Shown piece by piece: positions 39,588 through 61,290 of a DNA stretch of 64,000 nucleotides. This DNA is from Williamsia faeni. Lineage in GTDB: Bacteria > Actinomycetota > Actinomycetes > Mycobacteriales > Mycobacteriaceae. Each line of letters begins with the position of its first letter. Position 1 is the stretch's first letter. The stretch is from contig QJJF01000011.1 in the NCBI GenBank assembly GCA_003202005.1, positions 1 through 64,000 on the forward strand, in the 5' to 3' direction. The position numbers and the translations under genes were made by a program. The notes beneath the pieces are model-generated. The model ran no database searches. It had not been told where the DNA came from and worked only from the letters and a program-made list of their open reading frames with translations.

Positions 39588-39680
39588 GCGTCGACCGGTA
39601 CTCCGTCATCCCTTGCAGTGCAGAGTTCGGGAGTGACGACCGGTGGTCAATCAGCGGTGCCCTCCATACAGTCGATAGAC
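39588..39680 (+). repeat. Dispersed repeat shared with 51.15-51.24 kb
   Basis: About 90 bp including GACCGGTACTCCGTC and GTGCAGAGTTCGGGAGTGAC match the minus strand of 51145-51235 at about 80%. Probably an IS end or transposase scrap; not identified further. 39.31-39.59 kb shows no gene. Confidence 0.5.
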
Positions 39681-39705
39681 CGACTGAAAAGAAGGGACCA
39701 GGTTG

Positions 39706-40218: not shown

Positions 40219-40407
40219 TCGCCGAGTGGGTGGATTCGTCCCGCACCATCGGGCATAGGTATCCGTAGAAGTCGAGTGTCGTCTTGTCGGAGCAATCGAG
40301 ACAGCCCACCGCCTACGAGGGCTCGCCAGTTTCCCGCTCACTCCGAAGGTCGAGAGGACGACCTTCCTCATCCGGGTACGCGGCCGAAGCGCGACGATCG
40401 GCCCGCG

Positions 40408-41376
40408 TCAGGCCGTTTGTCCCGTCGATTGTGCGGCGAGCGCCACCGACATCGCGGCGTGCAGGGCCTCGATTGCGGTGTGACCGATGGCGGTGTCAAG
40501 CATGGTGAAACCGTGAAAGGTGCCGTGCCACTGCCGTAGATCGACAGGCACTGCCGCAGTCCTCAGCCGCTCGGCGTAACGAAGTCCTTGGTCGCGGAGG
40601 GGGTCGAGTTCATTCACGGTGAGGTAGGTCGGTGGCAGGCCGGTGAGGTTGGGATGGCGCGCGGGAATGGTACGCGAGTCGAGGCGATTGCCGGCCAGGA
40701 AGAGTTCCCAGCTTCGTTCCGCCAGCGCTCTGGTCCAGAACACGGTGTCGGTTCCCTGCTGCATCGAGGTTGTGTCGCAACGGTTGTCGAGGACAGGTTC
40801 CAGCAACGCCTGGCAGGCGAGAGCCGGTCCGCCCTGATCACGCGCCCGAAGTGCGGTCGTAGCCGCAAGGTACGCACCCGCGCTGGCACCGAGTATGCCG
40901 ATGCGGGCCGGGTCGATTCCGAGTTCGAGATGACGGCCCGCAACCCACAACAACGCCGCATAGCAGTCGTCGACCGCAGCCGGATGAGGATGCTCGGGTG
41001 CCAACCGGTAGTCCACCGACACCACGACGGCGTCGGTGGCGTTGGCCAACTCGCGGTTGGCGGCGTCGTTGTCGGCTGCCGAACCGAGAACAAAGCCGCC
41101 ACCGTGGATTTCGATGATCGCCGCACGCGTCCGTGAGCGCGCGGCATCGGGACAGGTGATCCGCAGCGGCACCCGTGGGCTTCCGGCCGGTCCCTCGATC
41201 TCGACGAGCGATGGCCCCGTGCCCGACGCATCCTCGACCCGGCGGGGCGCCCGCCCGTCGAGAGCTAGCCGCATCGCCGGAACATCTGACAGGTCCAGTG
41301 CAGGCATCTCGTCAACGAGATGTTCGAGATCGGGTTGAATGGTGCCGGGAACGATCATCCCGCCTTCCGGCATCAT
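40408..41376 (-). CDS. Hormone-sensitive-lipase-family esterase
   Basis: A 322-residue alpha/beta hydrolase of bacterial family IV. The oxyanion motif HGGGFVLG, the YRLAPEHPHPAAVDDCYAAL block, the nucleophile elbow GASAGAYLA (a GDSAGG variant), the acid in NELDPLRDQG and the His in WHGTFHGF are present. It hydrolyses short-chain esters or lactones in the cytoplasm. Its ATG shares a base with the pyruvate carboxylase stop (TGATG), so it is coupled to that gene and is the last gene of the leftward branch of the sugar cluster. Its role there could be removing acyl or lactone groups from the imported substrate (inference). Confidence 0.85.
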   Translation of the reverse strand: MMPEGGMIVPGTIQPDLEHLVDEMPALDLSDVPAMRLALDGRAPRRVEDASGTGPSLVEIEGPAGSPRVPLRITCPDAARSRTRAAIIEIHGGGFVLGSAADNDAANRELANATDAVVVSVDYRLAPEHPHPAAVDDCYAALLWVAGRHLELGIDPARIGILGASAGAYLAATTALRARDQGGPALACQALLEPVLDNRCDTTSMQQGTDTVFWTRALAERSWELFLAGNRLDSRTIPARHPNLTGLPPTYLTVNELDPLRDQGLRYAERLRTAAVPVDLRQWHGTFHGFTMLDTAIGHTAIEALHAAMSVALAAQSTGQTA

Positions 41377-44300: not shown

Positions 44301-44807
44301 CCCGCCGGCCACTGCCTTGACGAACAGCGGGAATGTCATCGATTCCGACGCCGACACCAGCTCGGAGACGTCGGTCGACGGCTCCGACGACGCCAGCACC
44401 GGCAACCCGGCCCGTCTCGCCGCGGCGATGGCCCGGGCCTTGTTGCCCGTCAGTTCCAGCACCTCGGCCGACGGTCCGACAAACGTGATGCCCGCGCTCG
44501 CGCACGCCGCGGCGAGATCCGGGTTCTCCGAGAGGAACCCGTAGCCGGGATAGATCGCATCGACACCCGCCTGTACCGCAACGTCGACGATCTCGTTCAC
44601 CGACAGATAGGCACGTACGGGATGCCCGACCTCACCGATCTGATAGGCCTCGTCCGCCTTGGTGCGGTGCACCGAATTGCGGTCTTCGAACGGGAACATC
44701 GCAACGGTGGAGATTCCGAGTTCATACGACGCGCGAAACGCGCGGATCGCGATCTCACCCCGATTGGCGACCAACACCTTGGCGAACTTCGGCACAACAA
44801 CATCCAT
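41376..44807 (-). CDS. pyc: Pyruvate carboxylase
   Basis: A full-length 1143-residue single-chain pyruvate carboxylase: biotin carboxylase (1-460; FAKVLVANRGEIAIRAFRA, the ATP loop KAVAGGGGRGMRRV, and NPRIQVEHTVTEEVTDVD), carboxyltransferase (about 530-800; DTTFRDAHQSLLATRVRTSG, with metal-binding HVHTHDTPGG), allosteric/PC domain, and the C-terminal biotinyl domain with the biotinylated Lys in EAMKMEA. It makes oxaloacetate from pyruvate, feeding the TCA cycle. Placement inside a sugar-catabolic cluster suggests that the pathway yields three-carbon units needing anaplerosis. The esterase start overlaps its stop; the SDR gene is 75 bp upstream. Confidence 0.96.
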   Translation of the reverse strand: MDVVVPKFAKVLVANRGEIAIRAFRASYELGISTVAMFPFEDRNSVHRTKADEAYQIGEVGHPVRAYLSVNEIVDVAVQAGVDAIYPGYGFLSENPDLAAACASAGITFVGPSAEVLELTGNKARAIAAARRAGLPVLASSEPSTDVSELVSASESMTFPLFVKAVAGGGGRGMRRVAEPAQLRESIEAAAREAQSAFGDSTVFLEQAVIDPRHIEVQILADGHGNVVHLFERDCSLQRRHQKVIEMAPAPNLPESLRQKICADAVAFAKEIGYECAGTVEFLLDGRGNHVFIEMNPRIQVEHTVTEEVTDVDLVQAQLRIAAGETLADLGLDQETIVLRGAALQCRITTEDPANGFRPDTGRITAYRSPGGAGVRLDGGTTTGAAVEAHFDSMLVKLTCRGRDFETAVTRARRAVAEFRIRGVATNIPFLQAVLDDADFIAGRVTTSFIEERPALLTARTSGDRGTKILSYLADVTVNKPHGERPSPVYPQDKLPPLDVSEPVADGSRQRLLALGPVGFAQALRAQKALAVTDTTFRDAHQSLLATRVRTSGLVMVAPHVARTTPQLLSIECWGGATYDVALRFLHEDPWERLALLREAVPNIALQMLLRGRNTVGYTPYPDTVTRAFVAEATATGIDIFRIFDALNNVDQMRPAIDAVLDTGTAVAEVALSYTGDLSDPGEQLYTLDYYLGLAEQIVDAGAHVLAIKDMAGLLRAPAARTLVSALRSNFDLPVHVHTHDTPGGQLATYLAAWEAGADAVDGASAAMAGTTSQPALSAIVAAAAHTERDTGLDLQAVCDLEPYWEALRKVYAPFESGLQAPTGRVYTHEIPGGQLSNLRQQAVALGLSDRFETVEMNYADADRALGRLVKVTPSSKVVGDLALALVGAGASAQQFVAKPDKIDIPESVIGFLRGELGTPPGGWPEPLRTRALEGRAAAKTETRLSADDEQGLASTSQQRRNTLNRLLFPGPTADFEAHRTQFGDTSRLSANQFFYGLRQGEEHRVRLEKGVELLIGLEAISDADKRGMRTVMCVLNGQLRPVSVRDRSIVDDTPSAEKADPNNPAHLPAPFAGVITLSVAVGDQVAAGDVVATIEAMKMEAAITASSTGVVGRVAVGEVQQVEGGDLLLVIDGGHSGRRTVV

Positions 44808-44882
44808 TCATCGTCGAGTGACACCGGGGCGGCACACCGCGGCGGGAAACAGCTACCGGCCACCGCGGGTGGCCGGAAGGGA

Positions 44883-45656
44883 TCAGTGCATGTGGCTTCC
44901 GCCATTGATGTCGATGGTGGTGCCGGTCAGATAAGCGGCGTCATCGGAGGACAAGAAGGTGATCACCGATGCGATCTCACGCGTGGTTGCGGTGCGGCCC
45001 AAAGGGATCCCGGAGGCGATCGCCTTTTCCTGTTCCTCGGTGCTACCGACCCGGATATTGGTGTCGACCGCTCCGGGGGTGACAGCATTGATCGTGACGC
45101 CTGTGTCCTCGAGTTCCCGGGCCAATGCCTTCGTGAAGCCGAGGACCGCTGCCTTGGCCGACGAGTACGGCACTTTGCCGAACACACCACCGCCGCGCTG
45201 GGCCGAGACGGACGACATGGTCACGATCCGTCCCCATCCGAGGGCGATCATGTCCGGCAGAAATGCCTTGGTCACCAGGTATGTGCCGGTCGCGTTGACC
45301 GCGAACACCTTGTTCCACAGCGCGAGTGTGGTCTCGAGGAACGGCACCGGGGAGGTGATCCCCGCGATGTTCGCCACCGCGCCGACCGGAGGAAGGTCGC
45401 CGGCGTCGACTTCACGTTTGGTCGCCAGGTACGCGGCCTGCACGGAGGCTTCATCGGACACGTCTACGGCATGGCCGAAAGCCGGGACATTGTAGGTGCC
45501 CCCGATCTCCGCGGCGACCTTGGCCGATGCCTCGCCGTCGAGGTCGAGAATCACCACTGCCCAACCATCTTCGGCGTACCGCTCCGCGGTCGCGCGGCCG
45601 ATCCCTTTCTCCGAGGTGGCGCCGGTGACAACTGCAGTACGTGTCTTGGTGTTCAT
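44883..45656 (-). CDS. SDR-family sugar/polyol dehydrogenase
   Basis: A 257-residue classical short-chain dehydrogenase. The NAD(P) motif TGATSEKGIGRATA has a two-residue insertion in the glycine loop; ANIAGITSP is the NNAG equivalent; the catalytic residues are Ser in TMSSVSAQ and Tyr/Lys in VPYSSAKAAVLG; the C-terminus ends in YLTGTTIDINGGSHMH. Asp in ILDLDG after strand 2 favours NAD(H). It probably oxidises or reduces a sugar, sugar acid or polyol. ATG 45656 has AGGAGA 4 nt upstream. It lies 25 bp after the isomerase gene, in the same leftward operon. Confidence 0.88.
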   Translation of the reverse strand: MNTKTRTAVVTGATSEKGIGRATAERYAEDGWAVVILDLDGEASAKVAAEIGGTYNVPAFGHAVDVSDEASVQAAYLATKREVDAGDLPPVGAVANIAGITSPVPFLETTLALWNKVFAVNATGTYLVTKAFLPDMIALGWGRIVTMSSVSAQRGGGVFGKVPYSSAKAAVLGFTKALARELEDTGVTINAVTPGAVDTNIRVGSTEEQEKAIASGIPLGRTATTREIASVITFLSSDDAAYLTGTTIDINGGSHMH

Positions 45657-45681
45657 CTTTTCTCCTGTGTGAGTTGAAATC

Positions 45682-46548
45682 TCAAGCGGCGAACGTGAGG
45701 AGTTCGCCGATGTTCTGCGCAGCGGCAGCGGTCGCGGCCGGGCGTTCGTCGTCGGTGACGTCTCGGGTTTCGAGTTCGAGAGTGAAGTGACCGCCGTATC
45801 CGGCAGCGTCGAGCGCGCGCAGACCGGATGCGAAGTCGACATCCCCGCGACCAACACTCAGGTTGATGTTGCCCGGACGGTCGCTGATCGGGTCGGTGTC
45901 GAGTTGGACGTGTCCCCGCAGGGCATCGCGGATGTGCACGTGAGCAATTCGTCCCGCGGTGTCCTGTACGAAGTCCACCGGATCGCCACCAGAGGCGACG
46001 ATGTGACTGAAGTCCATCACGATCCCGATGTCCGGATGCAACCTCTCCGTCAACGCCGCCGCGCGCGTGTGGTTGCAGCACAGCCGCCAGACATGCAGGG
46101 ATTCGACCCACAGATCGACACCGAGCAAGCGCCCCCGGTCGAGTACGAATTCGAGATTGTCAGCCACCCGTAGGAGGTCATCGTCGAGATCTGTCATCGG
46201 GGTGTGCTCGAGCGCCCCGTTGGGCAGGACGATGGCTTTCGCCTCGAGCACGGCGGCCAACTCGAGCAGCCGGAACAGATGCTCGGAATCGTGCATCCGC
46301 ATCCTCGGATCGTTCAGGTCACCGACGTCGACGTTGATCGACCGCACGGTCAGACCTGAATCGCGAACCGCGCCCACCACCCGAGCGATGCCCGCCCTGT
46401 CGAGGTCCAGCGGGACGTGGTCACACACCCCAGGCAATGAGCCCAGGTCGATTTCGGTGAATCCCAGTTTCGCCATCGCCGCCAGTGCGTCCGGCAGATC
46501 GAGATGACGAAACGAGATGCTCGAGCACCCCAGCCTGCTAGCCGTCAT
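45682..46548 (-). CDS. TIM-barrel sugar (phosphate) isomerase/epimerase
   Basis: A 288-residue xylose-isomerase-like/AP-endonuclease-2 fold TIM barrel. Metal-site features: GFTEIDLGSLPG near the start, WVESLHVWRLCCNH (Glu/His), GIVMDFSHIVASGG (Asp/His), AHVHIRDA (His) and FTLELETRD (Glu). Family members isomerise or epimerise ketoses, hydroxypyruvate, erythrulose phosphates and branched sugars. It is the first leftward gene, 176 bp from the divergent transporter, with operator-like palindromes between. Together with a split transketolase and an SDR it suggests a catabolic route for an unusual pentose, tetrose or branched sugar (inference). Confidence 0.82.
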   Translation of the reverse strand: MTASRLGCSSISFRHLDLPDALAAMAKLGFTEIDLGSLPGVCDHVPLDLDRAGIARVVGAVRDSGLTVRSINVDVGDLNDPRMRMHDSEHLFRLLELAAVLEAKAIVLPNGALEHTPMTDLDDDLLRVADNLEFVLDRGRLLGVDLWVESLHVWRLCCNHTRAAALTERLHPDIGIVMDFSHIVASGGDPVDFVQDTAGRIAHVHIRDALRGHVQLDTDPISDRPGNINLSVGRGDVDFASGLRALDAAGYGGHFTLELETRDVTDDERPAATAAAAQNIGELLTFAA

Positions 46549-46605
46549 GGCTTCTCCGTTTCGTCGTTAAGTGATGCGGCCCACAGTAGGACAAATAACG
46601 GTTAT

Positions 46606-46637
46606 CAGTCAACCGTCGCCGGTTGACTGTTGACAGT
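46606..46637. promoter_or_regulatory. Overlapping operator palindromes in the divergent promoter
   Basis: A 10-bp perfect inverted repeat (CAGTCAACCG-TCGC-CGGTTGACTG, 46606-46629) is joined to ACTGTTGACAGT (46626-46637, ACTGT-TG-ACAGT). A related TGTTGACAGTCGAC lies at 46665-46678. The reverse complement ACTGTCAACAG recurs before the GntR regulator at 50.02 kb. Likely the binding array of that regulator. Confidence 0.65.
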
Positions 46638-46724
46638 GACAGTGCAGTGGGTCACACTCGTTGTTGTTGACAGTCGACGGTCACTGGACGAGTTTGTAAC
46701 TACTACCTCTTCAGGAGGGTTCCA

Positions 46725-48086
46725 ATGGGCATCAATGCTCTCGAGATGCGCGGACCGGTCCACGGCACGAAAGACGCCAAACGCGTCGCCGTCGGCTCGT
46801 CGGTCGGCGCAGTCATCGAAACCTACGATTTCATCGGCTTCGGCACGGCCGCAGCACTGTACTTCGGCACAGCATTCTTCCCGGGCCAAAGCTCGGTGGC
46901 CGGCACGCTCGCCGCCTTCGCCACCCTTGGCGTCGGGTTCGCAGCGCGACCGATCGGCGGTGTCATCGGCGGCCACATGGGCGACAAGGTGGGCCGCAAA
47001 CCGGTGCTCGTGGCTTCCTTGATCATCATGGGTCTGGCCACCTTCGCCATCGGCCTCCTGCCGACCTATGCGCAGGCAGGCGTGATCGCACCGATTTTGC
47101 TCGTGCTCGTTCGCATCGTGCAGGGATTGGCGTTCGGCGCCGAATGGGGCGGTGCAATTCTGATGAGCTACGAACACGCACCATGGCGAAAGAAGGGGCG
47201 GTACACCGGCATCGTGCAAGCCGGCTTCCCTGTCGGCCTATTGCTGGCAAACCTGGTCTTTCTCGGTAGCGTCCACCTCGGAGGCGACTGGGCCTGGCGA
47301 GTGCCGTTCCTGGCCAGCATCTTCCTGGTCATCGTCGGACTCATCATCCGATCCAAGGTCCCCGAATCTCCAGTCTTCGAAGACGTCAAAGAGGCCGGCG
47401 ACATCACCGACTCCCCCATCAAAGAGGCGATCAAGCAGGACTGGCGGAACATCCTCCGCGGCATCGGACTTCGTGTCGCAGAGACCGCCGGATACGCGGT
47501 GTCGGTGACCTACATGATCTCCTACCTGCACACCGAGAAGCTGGCATCGACCACGGAAACCATCACCGCCCTGTGCATCGCCTCCGGGATCGGAATCTTC
47601 GCCACCGCGGGCTGGGCGGCACTCACCGACAAAATCGGGCGAAGGCCGCTCTATCTGATGGTCTGCGGCTTCGCCGCCCTGTTCGGGATCCCGATGTTCT
47701 TACTGGTCAATACCGGACTCTCGCTGTTTGTCATCGCAACCATCGTCTTGTCCTACGCCGTGTGCCAAAACGCACTGGCAGGATCTCAAGGACCCTGGTT
47801 CCCCGAGCTGTTCACCGCCGCCCGCCGCGCATCGGGAGCCTCACTCGCCTACCAGATCTCAGCCATGGTCTCCGGCTTCACACCGTTCATCACCACGTTG
47901 CTGTTCGTCTGGATGGGATGGCTGGGCCCGGCGCTGCTATTCATCGCGTACGCCCTGATCGGACTCTTCTCTGCGGTCGTCACCAAAGAAACATGGGGAC
48001 CCACCGAGCGTCGCCTCGCCAAGGAGGCAGAACGCACCACCCCTACTGAACTCACCGCTCCCCAGCGCGAAAAGGAACTGGCATGA
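46725..48086 (+). CDS. MHS-family MFS transporter (metabolite:H+ symporter)
   Basis: A 453-residue 12-helix major-facilitator protein of the metabolite:H+ symporter group (ProP/ShiA/KgtP relatives). Signatures: ETYDFIGFGTAAALYFGTAF in helix 1, the ARPIGGVIGGHMGDKVGRKP loop 2-3 motif, GAEWGGAILMSYEHAP in helix 5, and TDKIGRRPLY in the second half. MHS members import organic acids, betaine-type compounds or sugar acids with protons. First gene of the rightward operon. It overlaps the transketolase N-subunit by 4 nt, so uptake and catabolism are coupled. The imported compound is probably the inducer, but its identity is not evident. Confidence 0.92.
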   Translation: MGINALEMRGPVHGTKDAKRVAVGSSVGAVIETYDFIGFGTAAALYFGTAFFPGQSSVAGTLAAFATLGVGFAARPIGGVIGGHMGDKVGRKPVLVASLIIMGLATFAIGLLPTYAQAGVIAPILLVLVRIVQGLAFGAEWGGAILMSYEHAPWRKKGRYTGIVQAGFPVGLLLANLVFLGSVHLGGDWAWRVPFLASIFLVIVGLIIRSKVPESPVFEDVKEAGDITDSPIKEAIKQDWRNILRGIGLRVAETAGYAVSVTYMISYLHTEKLASTTETITALCIASGIGIFATAGWAALTDKIGRRPLYLMVCGFAALFGIPMFLLVNTGLSLFVIATIVLSYAVCQNALAGSQGPWFPELFTAARRASGASLAYQISAMVSGFTPFITTLLFVWMGWLGPALLFIAYALIGLFSAVVTKETWGPTERRLAKEAERTTPTELTAPQREKELA

Positions 48087-48985
48087 CAACGACCACCACC
48101 GAGTCGGCAACAACCGCAGAGCGCATCGAGCGCGCAGCCCGGTTCGCCTACAACATGCGCCACCACGTCATCGACATGGGCGAAGCCCAAGGACAGGGTT
48201 ACGTCGGACAAGCGCTCGGGGCTGCGGACATCTTCGCCGCCGTCTACGCCGACCGACTCAACTACCGGGCCGACGATCCGCACTGGGAGGGACGCGACCG
48301 ATTCCTGCTCTCCACCGGCCATTACGCCATCGGCCTGTACGCCGCACTCGCCGAAGCCGGGATCGTCCCGGTCGAAGAACTCGAGACCTACGGGTCCGAC
48401 GACTCCCGGCTTCCCATGTCCGGGATGGCAACGTACACACCGGGTATGGAGATCTCAGGGGGCTCACTGGGCCACGGGCTGACCGTCGCGGTGGGCATGG
48501 CCCTCGGACTGCGCTTGCAAGGCTCTCAGTCCACGGTGTTCAACTTCCTCTCCGACGGCGAACTCGACGAAGGATCGACGTGGGAAGCAGCCATGGGCGC
48601 CCACCACCATCGCCTGGGCAATCTGATCGCCATGGTCGACATGAACGCCCTGCAGGCAGACGGACCCACCGAAGGCATCCTCGGAATCGAGCCCGTCCAC
48701 GAGAAATGGGCCGCCGCCGGATGGTTAGTGCAACGCGTCAACGGAAACGATCCCGCCGCTCTGCTGGCCGCCTTCGACAACGCCTGCGCCGCGGCGACCC
48801 CCACCGGTAGGCCCGCGATCATCATCTGCGACACCAAGATCGGCTACGGCGTACCACTGCTGGAAACACGAGAGAAGGCGCACTTCATGCGCATCGACGA
48901 GCACGAGTGGAGCATCTGCCGCGACCAGCTCACCAGTCGCTTCACCGACCCTACATATTTGCAAGAAGATGAGGTTCAGGCATGA
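48083..48985 (+). CDS. Split transketolase, N-terminal (TPP-binding) subunit
   Basis: A 300-residue protein equal to the first half of transketolase. It holds the substrate and thiamine-diphosphate side: RFLLSTGHYAIGLYAALAEA, GGSLGHGLTVAVGMALGLRL, and the Mg/TPP motif SDGELDEGSTWEAAMGA ending in MVDMNALQ. It ends after GYGVPLLE, where single-chain enzymes continue. The next gene encodes the second half with a 4-nt overlap, so the two form a heterodimer pair. Split transketolases are known both as ordinary transketolases and as dedicated enzymes of unusual sugar pathways (for example apulose and sulfosugar transketolases). Position in a regulated catabolic operon favours a dedicated role (inference). 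Confidence 0.92.
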   Translation: MTTTTTESATTAERIERAARFAYNMRHHVIDMGEAQGQGYVGQALGAADIFAAVYADRLNYRADDPHWEGRDRFLLSTGHYAIGLYAALAEAGIVPVEELETYGSDDSRLPMSGMATYTPGMEISGGSLGHGLTVAVGMALGLRLQGSQSTVFNFLSDGELDEGSTWEAAMGAHHHRLGNLIAMVDMNALQADGPTEGILGIEPVHEKWAAAGWLVQRVNGNDPAALLAAFDNACAAATPTGRPAIIICDTKIGYGVPLLETREKAHFMRIDEHEWSICRDQLTSRFTDPTYLQEDEVQA

Positions 48986-49971
48986 CCGCCACGACAGCAC
49001 CCAAACTCAAGACCTCGGCGATGATCGCGTCGTTCGTCGATCCCGGACAACGCACCGCGACAGCACCTTTCGGGCACGCGCTGGTCAAAGCCGCCGAGGG
49101 CAACGACAAGATCGTCGGCCTGAGCGCCGATCTCGCCAAATACACCGACATGCACATCTTCGCCCAAGCCTTTCCGGAACGGTTCTTCCAGATGGGCATG
49201 GCCGAACAGCTCCTCCTCGGAGCATCGGCCGGGATGGCCGAGACCGGGCTCATCCCGTTCGCGTCGACATATTCGGTGTTCGCCGCCCGGCGCGCCTACG
49301 ACTTCCTGTGCCTGGACATCGCCGAACCCAACCTGAACGTCAACATCATCGGCGGACTGCCCGGACTCACCACCGGCTACGGCCCCAGCCATCAGGCCAC
49401 CGAGGACATCGCGATCTTCCGTGGGATGCCGAACCTGACGATCATCGACCCGTGCGATTCGGTCGACATCGAGCAGGCGGTTCCACAGATGGCCGCCTCC
49501 GACGGCCCGACGTACCTACGACTCCTCCGCGGAAAGGTCGCCACCGTCCTGGACGAATACGACTACACCTTCGAACTCGGCAAAGCGAAAGTCCTCCGTC
49601 CGGGTAACGATGTCGTGTTGGTCTCGAGCGGACTGATGACGATGCGGGCGCTGCAGGCAGCGACCAACCTGGAGAAGCACAACGTCGACGTCGCCGTGGT
49701 ACACACCCCCACCATCAAACCGTTCGATGCAGTCACCGTCCTCGCCGAACTCGACACCGACCGGCTGGCTTTCACACTCGAGAACCACACCAAGATCGGT
49801 GGACTTTTCGAGACCGTTGCATCGGCAGTGGTGGAACGGGGCCTCGGCAAACGAATCGGCTCCATCTCCCTGCCCGACAAGTTCCTCGACGCCGGCGCCC
49901 TCCCGACCTTGCACGACCGGTACGGGTTGTCCACGTCAAGCATCGAGTCACGCATCCTGGCCGAGCTGTAG
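48982..49971 (+). CDS. Split transketolase, C-terminal (pyrimidine-binding) subunit
   Basis: A 329-residue protein carrying the transketolase pyrimidine-binding and C-terminal domains. Visible are ATAPFGHALVKAAEGNDKIV, the Glu that activates the thiamine ring in FFQMGMAEQLLLG, ASTYSVFAARRAYDFL, GGLPGLTTGYGPSHQATEDI with the active-site His, and a Rossmann-like C-terminal domain from about 200. It works with the preceding subunit to move two-carbon ketol units. The GntR regulator gene follows in the same direction after about 120 bp containing an operator-like motif. Confidence 0.92.
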   Translation: MTATTAPKLKTSAMIASFVDPGQRTATAPFGHALVKAAEGNDKIVGLSADLAKYTDMHIFAQAFPERFFQMGMAEQLLLGASAGMAETGLIPFASTYSVFAARRAYDFLCLDIAEPNLNVNIIGGLPGLTTGYGPSHQATEDIAIFRGMPNLTIIDPCDSVDIEQAVPQMAASDGPTYLRLLRGKVATVLDEYDYTFELGKAKVLRPGNDVVLVSSGLMTMRALQAATNLEKHNVDVAVVHTPTIKPFDAVTVLAELDTDRLAFTLENHTKIGGLFETVASAVVERGLGKRIGSISLPDKFLDAGALPTLHDRYGLSTSSIESRILAEL

Positions 49972-50020
49972 AAACAGCTGGATCAGTGAACCACAGTGCG
50001 CAGAAGGGTGCCGGTAGGAT

Positions 50021-50036
50021 GACTGTCAACAGACAG
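50021..50036 (+). promoter_or_regulatory. Operator-like motif before the GntR regulator
   Basis: GACTGTCAACAGACAG contains ACTGTCAACAG, the reverse complement of the CTGTTGACAGT found in the divergent promoter at 46.63 kb. TCGACTGTC follows at 50040. This suggests autoregulation by the adjacent GntR protein. Confidence 0.55.
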
Positions 50037-50093
50037 CGGTCGACTGTCTGCAGTGGCACGTCACCGAAGTACCGAATGAATGGAGGCTCCGTC

Positions 50094-50759
50094 ATGGGCC
50101 AACCCGGCGCTCTTCTCGGACTGCAAAAAACCAACCTGCGCGAGCAAGCAGTCGCAGCCCTGCGAACGGCCATTACCCGGGGTGAACTCAGGCCTCGAAG
50201 CGCGCTCATCGAGACAGAGCTGTCCGAACGCCTAGGAATCAGCCGCGGTACGTTGCGCGAGGCGCTGCGGCAACTGCAGCAGGAAGGACTTGTTGTTGCC
50301 GGCGCACGCGGTCGCCTCGCCGTCAGAAGCCTCGACCCAGGGGAAATCACGGAGATCTTCGCGGTTCGCGCTGCACTAGAAGCGCTCGCCGCAGCCGAAC
50401 TCGCCGCGCTCGAAGAACGGAGCCCGGTCATCAAACGACTGCGGGAGACACTCGACCGGATGGCACTCGCCGGCACAGAAAACCTGGACGATCGAATTGA
50501 GGCAGACCTCGATTTTCACCGATTGATGTGCGAGCTCACTGGCAATCGAACCCTGCTGCACTCGTGGACTTCTCTCGAGGGATCAATCCGAATGTCCATC
50601 ATGTACGGCGGCACCGACCGCGCCGTCGGCAACATGGACACCGACCGACACTCCGTCATCATTGATGCCATCGAATCCGGTGACAGCGACGCTGCCCGCG
50701 ATTCGGTTGTCACACACATGACGTGGGCTGCAAACAATTTGGTCAGTGCCAACAGGTGA
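50094..50759 (+). CDS. GntR-family (FadR/FCD subfamily) regulator
   Basis: A 221-residue FCD-type GntR regulator. The winged helix is at residues 12-75 (REQAVAALRTAITRGELRP; LSERLGISRGTLREALRQLQ), followed by an all-helical FCD effector domain with the metal-binding pattern DLDFHRLMCELTGN, a His in DRHSVIIDAIESGD and DSVVTHMT. FCD regulators usually sense organic acids or sugar acids. ATG 50094 has GGAGG 8 nt upstream; the frame reaches 49986 without similarity. Shared ACTGTTGACAGT-type motifs before it and in the isomerase/transporter promoter imply that it controls both arms of the cluster and itself. Confidence 0.9.
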   Translation: MGQPGALLGLQKTNLREQAVAALRTAITRGELRPRSALIETELSERLGISRGTLREALRQLQQEGLVVAGARGRLAVRSLDPGEITEIFAVRAALEALAAAELAALEERSPVIKRLRETLDRMALAGTENLDDRIEADLDFHRLMCELTGNRTLLHSWTSLEGSIRMSIMYGGTDRAVGNMDTDRHSVIIDAIESGDSDAARDSVVTHMTWAANNLVSANR

Positions 50760-50761
50760 CA

Positions 50762-50930
50762 ACCAGGCGTCCAGATCATCCGGCATAGATGGCCGTAACG
50801 GTCGAGGGTCATCGTCGCTGTCTTGTGACCCGGCAGGGTCTGCAGGACCTTTGAGTTGGCGCCCGCGCTGATCGCGAGCGTCGCACACACGTATTACGAA
50901 GCTGGTGCGGCATAACCCTGGGAAGCTGCT
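50762..50930 (-). pseudogene. Tyrosine integrase, C-terminal remnant
   Basis: Two minus-strand frames together read VMPHQLRNTC, then CATLAISAGANSKVLQTLPG and HKTATMTLDRYGHL. This is the catalytic C-terminus of an actinobacterial tyrosine integrase, containing the HxLR motif, the GH and the active-site Tyr. A frameshift near 50890 separates the parts. It lies 80 bp from a tRNA 3'-end-like fragment, as expected at an old att site. Confidence 0.78.
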
Positions 50931-51010
50931 GGACACTTGAACCGCATAACCGCAGGTCAACATGTCGCGCGTGGATGGTTGTGGACGGCAGGGATGCAGG
51001 CAGCGAGAAC

Positions 51011-51043
51011 ACGAGGTTAGGGTTCGAATCCCCTCGGGCGCAA
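51011..51043 (+). repeat. tRNA 3'-end-like fragment (att scar)
   Basis: GAGGTTAGGGTTCGAATCCC followed by CTCGGGCGCAAC looks like a tRNA T-arm and acceptor strand. The T-stem has mismatches and no 5' half exists. It is a different tRNA type from the repeat family, beside the integrase remnant. Confidence 0.5.
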
Positions 51044-51144
51044 CAAAATACGGCGTGACCCCAACATATGTGCTCGATCATCTCCTCGTTCAATGAGGTC
51101 TCCGGGACCGTTTGGTGAACTGCTCGAACAGTCCGTCCGGACTC

Positions 51145-51235: not shown

Positions 51236-51497
51236 GTGTTTCGACGAGATCGACCACACCGCGTTTGCGGCGGAATTCCTCGGGGTAATGCTTCGGCACG
51301 GACACGGCTCCTTCGACGGCGTCGTGACCAAGAGTCAAGCAAACCGACTCCATGCGACCCGGGGTACATCAAGGTGCGCATCAACCGCGGGGAGGGTCCG
51401 TGACCAATCCGCGGCGCGGCTGAATCCGAATCACTTTCTGCGGCCAGAGTTCTGTGGACGTTCCACAGCTTCCGCCGCTGACTATTGAAGGGAAACT

Positions 51498-52748
51498 ATG
51501 GATGACGACCTGCAGGAATTCGCGCTGACTGGAGAAATCGCCCAGGATGTGCGGCAGCGGATAGAGCTGCTGCGCCACTTCGACTCCGTCGGTCAACTCC
51601 CGTTCTTCCAACAAATCGATGCCGTCGATACACCGTTTGTCGAGGTTCACGGGCGGAAGTGCGTGTTGCTTGGCTCCAATTCCTACATCGGCTTGTCGAC
51701 GCATCCGGACGTCGTCGCCGCGTCGGTCGAGGCGACGAAGGAATTCGGTTCGGGCACCACCGGCAGCCGCCTGCTCAACGGGACCTACAGCCTGCATGTG
51801 GCGCTCGAACTGCAGATTGCGGCATGGTTGGGCCACGAGCAGGCGCTGGTCTTCACCACCGGCTACCAGACGAATGTCGGCACCATCCAGGCTCTGCTCA
51901 GCGACGATTGCCTCGCGGTGGTGGACTCGTTGGCCCATGCGTCGATCCGCGACGGGGTCCGGCTGAGCCAAGCGGTCGAAGCCAAGTTCGAGCACAACGA
52001 CGCCGAGGGGTTGGCCGCAGTTCTGCGCAGCCATGCCGGCACTCAGTACCGCCGGGTTCTGGTAGTCGTCGACTCGCTCTATTCGATGGAGGGCTCGACC
52101 GCTCCGCTGGAACGGATCATCGAGATCTGTAAGAACGCCGGCGCACTCCTGATGGTCGACGAGGCGCACGGCATCGGAGTGTTCGGCCCCACCGGTGGCG
52201 GTTTGACGCAGCGGAACGGGGTCGCCAAGGATGTCGACATCCTGATGGGTTCTTTGTCGAAGGCGATCGGCGGCCTAGGCGGATTCGTTGCCGCATCAAG
52301 GGATTTCATCGACGAGATCCGGCTGAGCGCGAGGTCGTTCTGGTTCAGCACATCGGCGACACCCGGCGCGATGGCGGCGGCGTCCGCCGCAGTCAAGATC
52401 ATCCGCAGCGACGAGGGCAGTGACCGCCGCAGCCGATTGGAGCGCAACTCGCGGCTCATGCGGGAAGCGCTCGCACCCTTGGACGTCGCCCTGCTCCAGT
52501 CGGACGAACACAGCCCCGACTGGTCACCGATCATTCCCATCCGGCTGTTCGATGAGATGCGAACCGCCTTGAGCTGGAATCAACTTCGGGATGCGGGGGT
52601 ATTCGTCACACCGGCGATCTATCCGGCGGTCCCGATCGGCAAGCCGATCCTTCGTGTCTGCATGACCTCTGAACTCAGCGAGGACGATGTCCTCAATTCG
52701 GCCGAACTGCTCGCGAAGGAACTGTCCTGGGCCCAGGCGGATGCATGA
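51498..52748 (+). CDS. Alpha-oxoamine synthase (PLP enzyme, KBL/BioF/CqsA-like)
   Basis: A 416-residue fold-type-I PLP enzyme of the alpha-oxoamine synthase family. Blocks: SNSYIGLSTHPDVVAASVEA, GTTGSRLLNGTYSLHVALEL, DEAHGIGVFGPTGGG (PLP-ring Asp and His) and the Schiff-base Lys in SLSKAIGGLGGFVAAS. These enzymes condense an amino acid with an acyl-CoA or acyl-ACP, losing CO2, to give an alpha-amino ketone (BioF, KBL, serine palmitoyltransferase, the autoinducer synthase CqsA). No biotin, threonine or heme genes are nearby. Its partners are an SDR and an acyl-CoA-dehydrogenase-like protein, pointing to a lipid-like amino ketone or amino alcohol. ATG 51498 gives the full domain, with GAAGGGAAAC upstream. 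It overlaps the next gene by 4 nt. Confidence 0.9.
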   Translation: MDDDLQEFALTGEIAQDVRQRIELLRHFDSVGQLPFFQQIDAVDTPFVEVHGRKCVLLGSNSYIGLSTHPDVVAASVEATKEFGSGTTGSRLLNGTYSLHVALELQIAAWLGHEQALVFTTGYQTNVGTIQALLSDDCLAVVDSLAHASIRDGVRLSQAVEAKFEHNDAEGLAAVLRSHAGTQYRRVLVVVDSLYSMEGSTAPLERIIEICKNAGALLMVDEAHGIGVFGPTGGGLTQRNGVAKDVDILMGSLSKAIGGLGGFVAASRDFIDEIRLSARSFWFSTSATPGAMAAASAAVKIIRSDEGSDRRSRLERNSRLMREALAPLDVALLQSDEHSPDWSPIIPIRLFDEMRTALSWNQLRDAGVFVTPAIYPAVPIGKPILRVCMTSELSEDDVLNSAELLAKELSWAQADA

Positions 52749-53689
52749 GCGGCGGGTTCCGTCTCGCAATCACCGGCGGAACCGGAGATTTCGGACGGTC
52801 CATGCTGAAGTGGGCCATCGAGAACGACGACATCAAAGAGGTCACCGTCCTCGGTCGCCGACCGACCGGGCTGGTGCACCCCAAGCTTCGCGAAGCGTTC
52901 CTCGACTTGAGCAACCATGTCGTTCTCGACGCCGTCGCTGGTTACGACGCGCTGATCCATCTGGCGTACTGCGTGGAGGAACCCAGAAACAAGCGTCATG
53001 CCTATCAGGTCAATGTCGTCGCGACGCGGACACTTCTCGAGGAAGCGAACCGGGTGGGCATGGGTCGGCTGATCCTCACCTCCAGCGCCAACGCGCTCGG
53101 CGTGGCGGCATGCGGCACAGGAAAACAGTTGACGGAGAACAGCTATCCGGCCGGCGATCAGAACTCCGACCACTACTACTTCTATCACAAGGCGCTTGTA
53201 GAGCACCTGGCCAACTGGTACTGGGCGCATCGCACCCCGGGGTGTACGGAGTTAGCGGTGGCACGGCCCTGCTACGTCGTCGGCGAGCACTTCGACAATT
53301 CGGGCCTGCAGGCGTTCCTGGCCAAAACCGTGATCTACCCCGACCCGGCACACTCCTACTACCAGTTCCTCTGGGACTCAGATCTGGTGCAGGCCTACGC
53401 CACCATTCTCACGGAGGGCCTGACCGGGATCTACAACATCGCCCCCACCGACCAGACCAGCGTCAAAGAGATCGCCTCGATGACCCAGGCGCGCTTGATC
53501 TCCGGACCGCTACGCCTGCTGAAACCGGGCGCCGATCTGGCGTTCCGGTTGCGCCTGTCCCGCTTCTCCGGGCACTGGGTGACACCCGGCGACCCACTGC
53601 TCGACTCCCGGTTATTGCGCGAGACGACCGAGTGGAAGCCCTCGGCCAGCTCCGCAGAAGCGCTGCGCCGTTACATAAATCGCACCTGA
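52745..53689 (+). CDS. Extended SDR (NAD-dependent epimerase/dehydratase-like)
   Basis: A 314-residue extended short-chain dehydrogenase. The Rossmann motif is AITGGTGDFGRSMLKW; HLAYCVEEPRNKRHAYQVNV precedes the active site, with Ser in ILTSSANALG and YxxxK in YYFYHKALVE. The C-terminal part resembles substrate-binding regions of UDP-sugar epimerase relatives, but substrate class cannot be told. It starts inside the stop of the oxoamine synthase (ATGA), so the products are likely sequential: reduction of the amino ketone to an amino alcohol, or sugar-type modification. Confidence 0.87.
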   Translation: MSGGFRLAITGGTGDFGRSMLKWAIENDDIKEVTVLGRRPTGLVHPKLREAFLDLSNHVVLDAVAGYDALIHLAYCVEEPRNKRHAYQVNVVATRTLLEEANRVGMGRLILTSSANALGVAACGTGKQLTENSYPAGDQNSDHYYFYHKALVEHLANWYWAHRTPGCTELAVARPCYVVGEHFDNSGLQAFLAKTVIYPDPAHSYYQFLWDSDLVQAYATILTEGLTGIYNIAPTDQTSVKEIASMTQARLISGPLRLLKPGADLAFRLRLSRFSGHWVTPGDPLLDSRLLRETTEWKPSASSAEALRRYINRT

Positions 53690-53707
53690 TCGAGGAAGGA
53701 CTTTTAT

Positions 53708-54841
53708 ATGGACCGCACTGGACTTGAGGCACGGCTGTCGCACGTGGCGGCTGTCCGCCGTCACCTCCCCGAACTCGCTGACAAACTGGATAAGCTCGGC
53801 CTGATGGTCGCCGAAGATCCGGAGACGAACGTCGTCGCACTCTGGAAACAGCACGACGGGCCCCGGCTGACCGCCCCGAAAGGCCTCGGCGGAATCGGCG
53901 CGACCTGTGTGGAAACCCTTGAGCTGCAACGTGGAGTCGGCTACCTCAGCCCCTCGCTCGCCGCGGCGACCACCATGCATTACCTGTCTGTGGCGGGCCT
54001 GGCTGACTTCGCGAACTCCGCCGATGAGGAGACCATCGGCCTGATCAAATCGCTGATCGAGAACCGTACCGTCTTCGCCTCGGGATTCTCGGAGGGCAAG
54101 ATCGCCGGCAGCGTCTTTCGTCCCACTATGCAGGCCAGCCCTGCCGACGGTGGTTACACCCTGACCGGGCAGAAGAAACCATGCAGCCTCGCCGACAGCA
54201 TGGACTGTGTGATGGCCAGCGTGCTGCTCGATGACACCAAACAACGGGCCATCACGGTGATCTTCAACGGCAGCCCCGGTATGAGTGTCAGCCCGCTGTG
54301 GACCAGCTCGCCGCTGTCCGCCGCGCAAACCCACGCGGTGGTCTTCGAGGACGTCTTCGTACCGAACGATCTGATGATGGTCAGCGACGTCGAGGATGCC
54401 GACGGCCGCAACGAGAAATCCGGGTACGTCCTGTTCGGACTTATCATCACGGCAGGCTATGTCGGCGCCGCCACCCGACTCGCGCTCAAACTCGCCGACC
54501 GCGACGACTTCACCCCGGCAGACTTCGTCGAACTGTTCTCGCCGGTCGAAGGAGTGTGGCGCGCGCTGCGGATGATCGCGACGCGTTATGACAACGGTGA
54601 TCGCAGCGACGACCTGTTCGCCGACCTGCTGTGGATCCGTCTCGGTCTGCGCGACCAACTGCAGACGGCCGTGGCCCGCATGGTGGCGAAGGTGGGCGGC
54701 GTCGCCTTCGCGACCGATCCTGAGATCGCCTACCTGTCCTCGTGTATCTCGGCGTATTCGTTCCACCCGCCGAACCTGCGCGAGTCCGGCACCTTCCTGC
54801 TCGATCACGAGCTGGCCGGCGAGATCAACCTGACTCGCTGA
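53708..54841 (+). CDS. Acyl-CoA dehydrogenase-like flavoprotein
   Basis: A 377-residue protein with the acyl-CoA dehydrogenase fold. Visible are a central beta-domain (FASGFSEGKIAGSVFRPTMQ; GGYTLTGQKKPCSLADSMDC), AVVFEDVFVPNDLMM, and a helical C-terminal domain. The usual catalytic Glu could not be placed with confidence, so it may be a flavin monooxygenase-like or atypical member (as in HpaC/DszC-type branches). AAGGA lies about 10 nt before the ATG. It is the third gene of the cluster, and its 3' end overlaps the convergent MmpL gene by 17 bp. It probably desaturates or oxidises the acyl chain of the product (inference). Confidence 0.8.
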   Translation: MDRTGLEARLSHVAAVRRHLPELADKLDKLGLMVAEDPETNVVALWKQHDGPRLTAPKGLGGIGATCVETLELQRGVGYLSPSLAAATTMHYLSVAGLADFANSADEETIGLIKSLIENRTVFASGFSEGKIAGSVFRPTMQASPADGGYTLTGQKKPCSLADSMDCVMASVLLDDTKQRAITVIFNGSPGMSVSPLWTSSPLSAAQTHAVVFEDVFVPNDLMMVSDVEDADGRNEKSGYVLFGLIITAGYVGAATRLALKLADRDDFTPADFVELFSPVEGVWRALRMIATRYDNGDRSDDLFADLLWIRLGLRDQLQTAVARMVAKVGGVAFATDPEIAYLSSCISAYSFHPPNLRESGTFLLDHELAGEINLTR

Positions 54842-57029
54842 TCCCCACTTTGGCGTGCAGCTTCGCCAGGGGTGCGGGCGCCCACCAATTCCAGGTCCCG
54901 GCGAGCTTCATGACGGCCGGTAGCAACACCATTCGGACCAGGGTCGCGTCGACCACGACGGCGAGTGCGAGACCGACACCGATCATTCGCATGAACGCGA
55001 CCTGACCGCCGGCCAGCGCCGCGAAGACGATCACCATCAGAATCGCGGCCGCCGTGATGACCCGCCCGGCGCCGGCGATCCCGAGTGCCACGGCCTCGTC
55101 GTTGTCCTCTTTCCGGCGGGGCGACGCGAGCCAGTGTTCACGGATCCGGGACAGCAGGAACACCTCGTAGTCCATGGACAACCCGAACGCGGTCACGAAC
55201 AGGAACACCAGCACATCGGCGACCAGCGTGCCGGTGGGTGTGGTGCCGAGGCCGCCCAGGTGCCCCTCTTGGAACACCCACACCAGCGCGCCGAGCGTCG
55301 CCGTCAGGGACAAGGTGGTGAGTACCAACGCTTTCACGGGGAGCAGCAGGCTTCCGGTGAGCAGGAAGATCAACACGAACGTCGTGATCGCGATGAGCAG
55401 GAGAACCGTGGGCAGCAGCCGGACGATCTCATCTACCGAGTCCTGGTTGAGCTGGTTGGCACCGGTGAACAGTGCTTCGGCGCCGTGCGGCACCGGGACG
55501 GCGCGCAGCCGGTCGAGCTCGTCCCGCGACAACTCGTCCGACGATGGGTGCTCGATCGCCACGGAAAGCCATACGCTACCGTCTTTCACCGCGGTCGGCA
55601 GCAGCGGCGGGCCGACGGCACGGCCCTGGACGTAGGAGCCTTTCGGGGCAGACACCGCGACGGCACCGGGCACCTCGGACAACGCAGCGGCGTAGGCGGC
55701 AATGTCGTTGTCGGTCAGGCTGCGCCCATCGGGGATCACGATCGAGGTGGCCACGGCGGCATTGTTCGGGAACTCGGCGCGCACGATGTCGCCCACCTGA
55801 CGTGACTGAGCACTCGCGGGCAGCACCCGATCGTCCGGCAACCCGAAAAGCGCACTGAGGAACGGGGCCCCGAGAATCAGCAACAGCGAGACCACCGCCA
55901 GCGCGCACGGTATCGCGTGACCCATGACGAAGGCGGCGGTCCTGTAGAGCATGCTCACTCGGACGTTCTGATCCTTGGGCCCGCGGCGGAACTTGGTACG
56001 GATGTTGAACGATTCGATCCGGTCGCCGAGGAGCTTGATCACCGCCGGGGCGACGATCACGGCGAAGAGGCCGGCGAGCGCTATCACGCCGCAGCCCGCG
56101 TAGGCCATCGATCGCAGGAAGTACATCGGGAAGACCGCGAGTGCGCCGACCGCGAGGAACACGGTGCAGGCCGAGAACAGAATGGTGCGGCCGGCTCTCG
56201 CCACCGCCCGCCGCAGGGCCTCATCGCGATCACCGACCAGTTGATACTCCTCGCGGTACCGGCTGACGAGCAGCAACGTGTAGTCGATCGCGAGTGCCAA
56301 GCCCATGGCGGTGGTGAGATCGAGTGCGAAGATCGAGACGTCGGCGAAAAGAGTTATCCCGCGCAGCATTCCGAGGGTCCCGACGATGGCCAAACCGCCG
56401 ACAACGAGCGGTAGCAGCGCAGCGAACACCCCGCCGAACACCCAGATGAGCACCACCAGGGACAGCGGCAGTGCGATGGCTTCGGCGATGAGCAAGTCCT
56501 TCTCGGACTGCACGTTGATCTCCGCGGAGATCATCGCCGCGCCACCGGCCAGCACGATGAGACCGTCACGCTCGCCGGTGACTCCGTCGGCGACCTCCTT
56601 GCCGTGCTTGGGCGCATCGTCCTCGCCGCCGGTCATCTGGACGATCACCACGGCGGTCGCGCGGTCGGCGCTGAGCAGAGCCTGGCCGGCGGGAGAACCG
56701 TCCCAGGGGGATTCGATGCCGCCGACGTGCGGGGCGGCTCGCAGGTCAGCGACGAGGGCGCGTCCGGCCGCCGCGGCTGCCGGCTCCAGCACACTGCCAC
56801 CACCGGTGCGTCGCACCACGAACGTCAGATCCATGTCGCCCTGGCCGAACGTGTCGGTGAGCACCTTTGTCCCGCGCGCCGATTCGGAGCTCGGGTCCTG
56901 GAAACCGGCAGCGCCAAGATGTTCGGTCACGGTCGCGCCGCACACCCCGGCGATGATGGTCAACAGCCCGACAACCAGAAGCACTCGTTTTGGGGCGGCG
57001 ATGACCACGCGGGCCAGCAAAGTGAGCAC
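54825..57029 (-). CDS. MmpL-family RND lipid exporter
   Basis: A roughly 734-residue RND/MmpL transporter with two repeats, each one N-terminal helix, an external domain and five to six helices. Helix 4 of the first half has the proton-relay-type TTAMGLALAIDYTLLLVSRY, and the matching second-half motif is FLFVTAFGLSMDYEVFLLSR; both contain the Asp-Tyr pair typical of MmpL. The likely start is GTG 57029 (AGGAT upstream); the frame reaches 57173 without similarity. MmpL proteins move lipids across the inner membrane of mycolate bacteria. It converges on the oxoamine synthase operon, so exporting that product is possible but unproven. Confidence 0.9.
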   Translation of the reverse strand: MLTLLARVVIAAPKRVLLVVGLLTIIAGVCGATVTEHLGAAGFQDPSSESARGTKVLTDTFGQGDMDLTFVVRRTGGGSVLEPAAAAAGRALVADLRAAPHVGGIESPWDGSPAGQALLSADRATAVVIVQMTGGEDDAPKHGKEVADGVTGERDGLIVLAGGAAMISAEINVQSEKDLLIAEAIALPLSLVVLIWVFGGVFAALLPLVVGGLAIVGTLGMLRGITLFADVSIFALDLTTAMGLALAIDYTLLLVSRYREEYQLVGDRDEALRRAVARAGRTILFSACTVFLAVGALAVFPMYFLRSMAYAGCGVIALAGLFAVIVAPAVIKLLGDRIESFNIRTKFRRGPKDQNVRVSMLYRTAAFVMGHAIPCALAVVSLLLILGAPFLSALFGLPDDRVLPASAQSRQVGDIVRAEFPNNAAVATSIVIPDGRSLTDNDIAAYAAALSEVPGAVAVSAPKGSYVQGRAVGPPLLPTAVKDGSVWLSVAIEHPSSDELSRDELDRLRAVPVPHGAEALFTGANQLNQDSVDEIVRLLPTVLLLIAITTFVLIFLLTGSLLLPVKALVLTTLSLTATLGALVWVFQEGHLGGLGTTPTGTLVADVLVFLFVTAFGLSMDYEVFLLSRIREHWLASPRRKEDNDEAVALGIAGAGRVITAAAILMVIVFAALAGGQVAFMRMIGVGLALAVVVDATLVRMVLLPAVMKLAGTWNWWAPAPLAKLHAKVGISESG

Positions 57030-57232
57030 ACGGCGGATCCTACGGGTTCGCGCTGATGGACCGTGTGGAGTTCGGTGCTCGCGCACGCGCTCTTTGTGCC
57101 AGTTTCTCGCTGTCACGAGAGTGTTACAACTCGTGCGCGACACCCGCGAGCGCGAACGAACGCCCACGAGCAATATGCGCGGGTAGGACCGCGAATTGCG
57201 TACACCCGCGAATACCCCAGCAGGATCGTTCC

Positions 57233-60205: not shown

Positions 60206-60439
60206 ATGAGCGAAACCGATGCGTTGAAGCACGAGATGCTTGAGTTCGAGGCACGCTGGTTTCGATTGGGCGGCGGTCCGTCGCACGAGATTCTTTCTCG
60301 TTTCGGCATGACCGATCGGACATTCTTCGCGGAGATCGATGCCCTCATGGACGAGCGGCGAGCGCTCGATCACTTCACCCCACGTGATACTGAGGTGATA
60401 CGCGCTGTGATCCGGCGCCGGCTGTGGCTGGCTAACTGA
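60206..60439 (+). CDS. DUF3263-like small protein
   Basis: A 77-residue protein starting at ATG 60206 with AAGGAG 6-7 nt upstream. EFEARWFRLGGGPSHEILSR and FGMTDRTFFAEIDALM match the DUF3263 family (small, probably helix-turn-helix-like, common in mycobacteria). Function unknown; DNA binding is a guess from predicted fold. Its 3' end overlaps the convergent next gene by 8 bp. Confidence 0.75.
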   Translation: MSETDALKHEMLEFEARWFRLGGGPSHEILSRFGMTDRTFFAEIDALMDERRALDHFTPRDTEVIRAVIRRRLWLAN

Positions 60440-60680
60440 GGGCGGCGAGTGATTCCGGTGTTGTGTTCGCTCGGTCGCCGAGTTTTTCGTGCGCCCGCCG
60501 TTCGACGAGCAGGGGCACGAAGTCACGGATCGGTTGGTCGTCGAAACGGTGATACGCATCCTCGACGACCTGGGCGACGGTGTCAGCCGACAGACTCGCG
60601 TGTTGCTTGGTCAGTTTTTCGGCAATGAGATTGATGTTCTGCCGCTCGTCTTGCTGGCGCTTGTCGGCAAAAGTAGTCAT
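60432..60680 (-). CDS. Three-helix-bundle dimerisation-type small protein, copy 1
   Basis: An 82-residue protein from ATG 60680 (MTTFADKRQQDERQ). Helical throughout, with VAQVVEDAYHRFDDQPIRDF and VPLLVERRAHEKLG, the pattern of the small three-helix-bundle proteins widespread in mycobacteria. It is about 75% identical to the protein at 61042-61290. Each copy has a divergently placed small plus-strand gene. Function unknown. Confidence 0.7.
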   Translation of the reverse strand: MTTFADKRQQDERQNINLIAEKLTKQHASLSADTVAQVVEDAYHRFDDQPIRDFVPLLVERRAHEKLGDRANTTPESLAALS

Positions 60681-61041: not shown

Positions 61042-61290
61042 CTAGTGAAGATCGTCGAACGATTCAGGCGTTGCCGTGGCCCGGTCGCCGAGTTGCTCGT
61101 GGGCCCGCCGTTCGACCAGCAGGGGCACGAAGTCGCGGATCGGTTGCTCGTCGAAACGGTGGTACGCGTCCTCGACGACCTGGACGACGGCGTCAGCAGA
61201 AAGTCCGGGGTGTTGCTTGATCAGCTTCTCCGCGATCAGATTCATGATCTGCCGCTCTTCGTGCAGGCGCTTGTCGGCATAGGCAGTCAT
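61042..61290 (-). CDS. Three-helix-bundle dimerisation-type small protein, copy 2
   Basis: An 82-residue paralogue of the protein at 60432 (MTAYADKRLHEERQ; VVQVVEDAYHRFDEQPIRDF; VPLLVERRAHEQLG). Same arrangement: leftward, with a divergent QGAD-type gene starting 130 bp away. The pair shows tandem duplication of a roughly 0.6-kb unit. Confidence 0.72.
   Translation of the reverse strand: MTAYADKRLHEERQIMNLIAEKLIKQHPGLSADAVVQVVEDAYHRFDEQPIRDFVPLLVERRAHEQLGDRATATPESFDDLH

Follow-up and report, generated by a model that had tools for sequence, protein, structure and literature searches.

A horizontally mobile cassette of Williamsia faeni and other mycolic-acid bacteria that may make and export an N-hydroxylated sphingoid-base-like lipid

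The closest described systems to the genes considered here are the bacterial serine palmitoyltransferases (SPTs), which are members of the alpha-oxoamine synthase (AOS) family, and the VlmH-type flavin amine N-hydroxylases. According to excerpts of PMC12910592, no sphingolipid has ever been described from mycobacteria, and the role of an SPT-like AOS there is doubted. VlmH together with its partner VlmR is reported to hydroxylate isobutylamine (excerpts of PMC11705231, PMC9379638 and PMC7347517), and a set of VlmA, VlmO and a class III aminotransferase is described for azodyrecin in an excerpt of PMC9379638. Here we present a bioinformatics analysis of a four-gene cassette of Williamsia faeni (Mycobacteriales), located on positions 1 to 64,000 of contig QJJF01000011.1 (assembly GCA_003202005.1; this whole stretch of 64,000 nucleotides is termed the window), in which an SPT-like AOS is encoded beside a VlmH-like flavoenzyme. 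For such a pairing no description was found in the open-access literature (among the matches listed). The cassette comprises a short-chain dehydrogenase/reductase (SDR), an acyl-CoA dehydrogenase (ACAD)-like protein and an MmpL-family exporter in addition to the AOS:

51498-52748, + strand: AOS, 416 aa, placed by tree on the SPT side of its family
52745-53689, + strand: extended SDR, 314 aa, overlapping the AOS gene by 4 bases
53708-54841, + strand: ACAD-like gene (the third gene), 377 aa, starting 18 bases past the SDR gene
54825-57029, - strand: MmpL-family exporter, GTG start, 734 aa, convergent on the operon
51302-57218, strand not applicable: extent of the cassette shared with Aldersonia sp. 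NBC_00410 (5.9 kb, all four genes, 96.7% DNA identity)

Our best reading, for which belief and doubt are about equally weighted, is that of a mobile cassette that makes and exports an N-hydroxylated sphingoid-base-like lipid, with the substrates and product as predictions. The SPT-type AOS would join an amino acid, with serine as the likeliest candidate, to an acyl thioester and so yield a 2-amino-3-keto lipid; the SDR would convert the ketone into an amino alcohol; and the VlmH-like flavoenzyme would turn the amine into a hydroxylamine with reduced flavin supplied by a reductase whose gene lies outside the cassette, the relative order of these last two steps not being fixed. The resulting N-hydroxylated sphingoid-base-like lipid would then be exported by MmpL.

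The gene order read in an earlier note, which was made from the letters of the window alone, was confirmed by the coordinates: four genes, an AOS and SDR coupled by the 4-base overlap, an 18-base gap before the third gene, and a convergent MmpL gene whose 3' end overlaps that of the third gene by 17 bases. A longer MmpL open reading frame (ORF) is available from an upstream TTG and extends to 57173. Pfam and NCBIfam were consistent with the gross classes of all four genes, the AOS matching PF00155 (175 bits), the SDR PF01370 and MmpL PF03176; the third gene gave a weak PF02770 match under the cut-off and no PF00441 match in Pfam. The G+C content offers little contrast (window 62%, operon 63%, MmpL 67%).

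It is the third gene that carries the argument for an N-oxygenated product. In a tree of ACAD-type proteins (37 rows), the 23 ACADs of the AOS/SDR/ACAD module form a clade (support 100/99), with that of locus L062 deepest, inside a VlmH-like set (100/100) of 33 rows that consists of these 23 and ten others; L069 and three distant rows fall outside it. The ACAD of L047, missed by the gene caller and hence absent from the tree, is detected by tblastn. The glutamate of the EGT motif, with its role, is a feature of acyl-CoA dehydrogenases, and HPP stands in place of EGT in 33/33 rows of the VlmH-like family, the window protein reading FHPP. Ten loci were drawn for the classical ACADs of the window genome, and six were usable (L099 lay in the wrong frame; L091, L093 and L095 gave none); EGT occurs in four of the six and GGT in the other two (L097 and L098), which may belong to a subgroup with its glutamate elsewhere. 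Furthermore, the window protein keeps 32 of the 36 positions at which the other 26 rows of the family do not vary.

Among plasmid records the third gene matched 23, of which 12 were from Streptomyces, and the best full-length relatives were Streptomyces genes (31-34% identity over 94-96%) together with two Nostoc genes. Surroundings were examined at three of the 23 plasmid loci (H41, H44 and H47), two from Streptomyces and one from Nostoc. Among the best matches listed, the third-gene relatives of the two Streptomyces loci share 39-43% identity with ACADs of sister AOS loci. These two loci hold a flavin reductase, a VlmB-like protein, a seryl-tRNA ligase and a DUF2156 protein, which is the valanimycin layout; the locus of Streptomyces NBC_00212 additionally holds a pyridoxal phosphate (PLP)-dependent decarboxylase, an MmgE/PrpD protein and a diacylglycerol kinase, and the Nostoc locus a PLP decarboxylase and a non-ribosomal peptide synthetase. 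Eight more distant, AOS-less loci of Mycobacteriales (L063-L070) carry a member of the class III aminotransferase cluster in seven cases, VlmA-like and VlmO-like genes in five (together with the aminotransferase, the azodyrecin set), a flavin reductase in four and a VlmB-like gene in four. Three of the eight (L063, L064 and L069) thus fall short of a complete azoxy cluster, even though the tree labels the whole set azoxy-type. An amine-forming PLP enzyme, either decarboxylase or class III aminotransferase, lies in the same stretch at 9 of the 11 non-module loci examined, and in the module its place would be occupied by the AOS. Because of the VlmH-type relatives and of HPP in place of EGT, the third gene is likely to encode a VlmH-type flavin amine N-hydroxylase acting on an amine, and the "chain oxidation" that the earlier note had assigned to it is unlikely.

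The first gene is identified as a true AOS by its PLP fold-type I domain and its motifs, DEAHGIGVFG at residue 221 and SLSKAIGG at residue 252 with K255 as the motif lysine, in agreement with what had been claimed from the letters. Its NCBIfam scores were 333.9 bits for SPT (equivalog cut-off 500), 331.4 for bioF and 203.5 for the CqsA type, none of them over its cut-off. The nearest solved AOSs by sequence search of the PDB are bacterial SPTs (2x8u and 8guh), and the window motif GSGTTGSRLLNGT differs in one residue from GSGTTGSRVLNGT of 2x8u. The AOS tree has 40 rows, and a single clade (100/99) unites the 24 AOSs of the module with two more. This clade lies to the SPT side of a split supported at 99/97, across which lie BioF, KBL, ALAS and the other AOS of the same genome. 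The tight grouping with BioF or KBL against which the earlier note wished the enzyme to be checked was therefore not found. The rows on the BioF/KBL/ALAS side are few and long-branched (KBL and ALAS with one row each), a program warning concerned the meeting of long branches within the BioF/ALAS rows, one own-genome protein occupies two rows, and the root serves for drawing only. The fork that joins the module clade with 2x8u and two context-labelled SPT rows has a support of only 86/81, and the SPT rows do not form one group; the SPT labels of the Parabacteroides, Roseomonas and Diaphorobacter rows were assigned from context, and CqsA is not in the tree. The own genome holds one other AOS relative on the BioF/KBL/ALAS side, at 36% identity (among 8 of 18 PF00155 matches).

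Two AOSs of the module clade lie outside any module, one in genome G038 (L086) and the other a second copy in Aldersonia (L087), and no VlmH-like gene occurs at either within the stretch read:

L086, 6254-14749 (G038): module-type AOS, acyl carrier protein (ACP), AMP-ligase, FMO-like flavin monooxygenase, classical SDR, MmpL
L087, 3855-15001 (Aldersonia genome G051): AOS, AMP-ligase, two ACPs, classical SDR, wax-ester-synthase-like protein, MmpL

In L086 the FMO-like flavin monooxygenase may stand in for the N-oxidising enzyme. Since AMP-ligase and ACPs stand beside these related AOSs, a long acyl chain is favoured. The substrates of the window enzyme would be serine (most likely) and a long acyl thioester. 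As to the sphingoid or CqsA-type product proposed earlier, the sphingoid part accords with the SPT side of the tree, and the CqsA-type signal is the less favoured of the two. Large proteins (some 1400-1600 aa) with a C-terminal AOS domain were also observed, on a Streptomyces plasmid with an adjoining MmpL gene and in a Mycobacteriales genome (L083, 2296-7119; L088, 7953-12143); long open frames suggest more.

The SDR has the residues TGGTGDFG and the active-site YxxxK at Y145-K149, and is predicted to reduce the 3-keto group. Compared with one SDR of a Diaphorobacter plasmid, encoded in the vicinity of an SPT-like AOS, it gives a match of only 31% over 80 residues, too short for a connection with ceramide reductases to be drawn. 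Separately, the SDRs of L049, L052 and L061 bear a C-terminal extension, which in L061 starts like an alpha/beta hydrolase (Pfam, under cut-off); no complete alpha/beta hydrolase domain was seen in frame by eye in the three extensions.

Conservation of the set was assessed in 201 genomes, the window genome and 200 relatives, at cut-offs of E<=1e-70 for the ACAD and E<=1e-90 for the AOS. A close ACAD match was present in 20/201 and an AOS match in 21/201; all 20 ACAD genomes carry the AOS, and G038 is the sole AOS genome without a close ACAD match. This co-occurrence has a one-sided hypergeometric probability of about 1e-26 with kinship ignored. Samples across the order (397 genomes) revealed no further AOS+ACAD genome, the seven found all being within the known 20. 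AOS, SDR and ACAD stand together in 24/24 loci, collinear or divergent, the loci being those of the carrier genomes and of five named records, one of which is the same Aldersonia contig as G051; in L062, by exception, the SDR lies about 9 kb away from the AOS and ACAD. An MmpL gene adjoins the set in 11 loci, and one or two genes of the major facilitator superfamily (MFS) are found in six. Pairwise protein distances correlate at r=0.98 between AOS and ACAD (24 loci) and at r=0.92 between AOS and MmpL (11 loci), values that shared descent alone would also raise. The gene set recurs in other Mycobacteriales and is therefore not a matter of chance; as a real conserved module, AOS/SDR/ACAD is well supported by these comparisons, and the refuting case named in the earlier note, in which the three genes would never be conserved together, does not apply. 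The enzyme classes are likewise well supported.

Mobility of the whole cassette can be deciphered from the Aldersonia match. No further blastn match (E<=1e-10) connects the window with the Aldersonia stretch of 20 kb. Two other window proteins were compared with their best matches in the Aldersonia genome: pyruvate carboxylase is 82% identical, and PhoU, for which orthology is doubtful, 49%. Just one of nine genomes of the window's genus carries the cassette. Nearly the same interval recurs in four Mycobacterium/Mycolicibacterium loci at 74-82% identity, with flanking genes mostly outside any shared cluster. The comparison indicates that the four genes transfer as a unit and that the cassette is horizontally mobile, which ties MmpL to the pathway in the window's clade; the exporter gene, noted earlier for its convergent position, travels there with the operon.

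Next to the cassette, two overlapping ORFs in different frames (50516-51093, - strand) resemble, on inspection by eye, fragments of a tyrosine recombinase, and a stretch like a tRNA 3' end lies beside them near 51018-51043. The region is a possible relic of an integrative element, a by-eye reading only, since no Pfam domain was found in the two ORFs and neither an ARAGORN tRNA nor an Rfam match in the region.

The relation to N-N chemistry was interrogated with VlmO and VlmA queries taken from L062 and searched in 27 genomes. VlmO matched six, and the same six had strong VlmA matches (E<=1e-60); G034, the genome of L062, is alone among the 20 AOS+ACAD genomes in belonging to these six, and its VlmO gene lies beside the AOS. 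In the other 19, the window genome included, VlmO was unmatched and the VlmA query reached at best E 4.8e-19, with a weak E 1.2e-8 in the window genome. The four cassette genes include no VlmA, VlmB or VlmO, VlmB not having been searched for in the genomes. With VlmO absent and VlmA weak in the window genome, the product should therefore stop at the N-oxygenated amine. L062 is a candidate cluster for an AOS-derived azoxy product:

L062, 1-16880 (G034): AOS, VlmH-like, VlmA-like, VlmO-like, class III aminotransferase relative, P450, phosphoenolpyruvate-utilising enzyme, MmpL

Several observations weigh against an N-hydroxylated sphingoid-base-like product. The window protein changes 4 of the 36 invariant family positions and 18 of the 59 that are invariant in the ten non-module rows, and in each of the two trees a long stem leads to the window clade (1.28 and 1.06 changes per column), so that the substrates may be different ones. 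In the PDB, the third protein finds its best match in a cyclohexanecarboxyl-CoA dehydrogenase (E 4e-8), and NCBIfam yielded weak matches only, with no family model over its cut-off. The published VlmH sequence lies outside the comparison, the VlmH identity resting on cluster layout, and the structures that AlphaFold predicted for the third protein and the SDR, with alignments of 6 rows as input, were of low quality (mean pLDDT 36.3 and 57.9). The cassette holds no flavin reductase (the genome has seven PF01613 matches), and among its four genes there is no ceramide-type N-acyltransferase, ACP or AMP-ligase. Finally, 7 of the 24 loci have neither MmpL nor a clear MFS exporter nearby.

Other explanations were weighed against the same evidence. 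The weak PF02770 match, the overall fold family and the dehydrogenase found in the PDB would suit a sphingoid-lipid pathway with an ordinary dehydrogenase or desaturase of the acyl chain as its third gene; this is quite unlikely, given that PF00441 is unmatched, that the family motif is HPP in every row and that the non-module relatives include enzymes of azoxy clusters. A somewhat less improbable reading, still well short of the preferred one, is a diffusible short-chain signal with a CqsA-like role, either an amino ketone or an N-hydroxy amino ketone. Acyl length is not fixed by sequence, and 13/24 loci are without a nearby MmpL, six of these having an MFS exporter; against such a signal stand the score gap between the CqsA-type and SPT models (203.5 against 333.9 bits, CqsA itself being outside the tree), the MmpL that co-travels in the window clade, and the AMP-ligase and ACP at two sister AOS loci.

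An azoxy or other N-N product, with its N-N enzymes encoded elsewhere in the genome, would draw on the VlmH-like third gene and on L062, where an AOS is combined with VlmA- and VlmO-like genes. We consider it about as unlikely as the dehydrogenase, in view of the missing VlmO in 19/20 AOS+ACAD genomes and the weak VlmA matches there (VlmB was not searched for). Least credible by far is a paralogue of BioF, KBL or ALAS with a part in the metabolism of biotin, threonine or heme: the bioF model comes near the SPT score, yet every NCBIfam match is under its cut-off, the 99/97 split separates the enzyme from those rows, few and long-branched as they are, and the genome has another AOS on their side.

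Upstream of the cassette, 46725-50759 is probably an operon of its own, with an ORF (46725-48086) that was read by eye as an MFS transporter, a transketolase split into two genes (the first half with a Pfam match) and a regulator of the GntR type. Against plasmids, the stretch 36500-50800 gave partial megablast matches only, the best being to Nocardia farcinica at 76.8% over 24%. Two similar 83-codon ORFs lie downstream on the - strand, about 360 bases apart (60432-60680 and 61042-61290).

Overall, the unknown amino-lipid product proposed in the earlier note is likely. More tentatively, and with doubt outweighing belief, N-hydroxylated sphingoid bases, as 2-hydroxyamino-1,3-diol lipids or as the oxime/nitroso forms that arise from these by oxidation, could be made and exported by mycolic-acid bacteria through a small mobile cassette that spreads the trait, with L062 as a bridge of sphingoid-type and azoxy chemistry. 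We know of no example of such a lipid class. If the third enzyme hydroxylates an amine, both the chemistry of the lipid head group and the setting of a VlmH-type enzyme would be new, and with just three biosynthetic genes involved the idea is open to direct test.

In comparison with known systems, the bacterial SPTs (2x8u and 8guh) are the nearest solved AOSs, on the same side of the tree and with a motif one residue apart, whereas the window AOS belongs to a separate clade (100/99), is coupled to a VlmH-like enzyme and MmpL, and has no ceramide genes in its cassette. The VlmH/Ady3-type N-hydroxylases of valanimycin and azodyrecin resemble the third protein through its 31-34% identity to the Streptomyces plasmid members, the 32/36 positions kept and its length (377 aa, against 378 aa for VlmH in an excerpt of PMC7347517). 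Unlike the azoxy clusters, where the amine comes from a decarboxylase or transaminase, the cassette would draw its amine from the AOS; it is without flavin reductase, VlmA, VlmB and VlmO, and its third gene lies in a clade of its own. Rv0032 (BioF2) of Mycobacterium tuberculosis is likewise an SPT-like AOS of a mycolic-acid bacterium, with its function described as open in an excerpt of PMC12910592; by that description, not by sequence, it is set apart through an extra N-terminal domain and an occurrence reported only in the tuberculosis complex. Together with the sister loci L086 and L087, the cassette suggests an SPT-like radiation in mycolic-acid bacteria.

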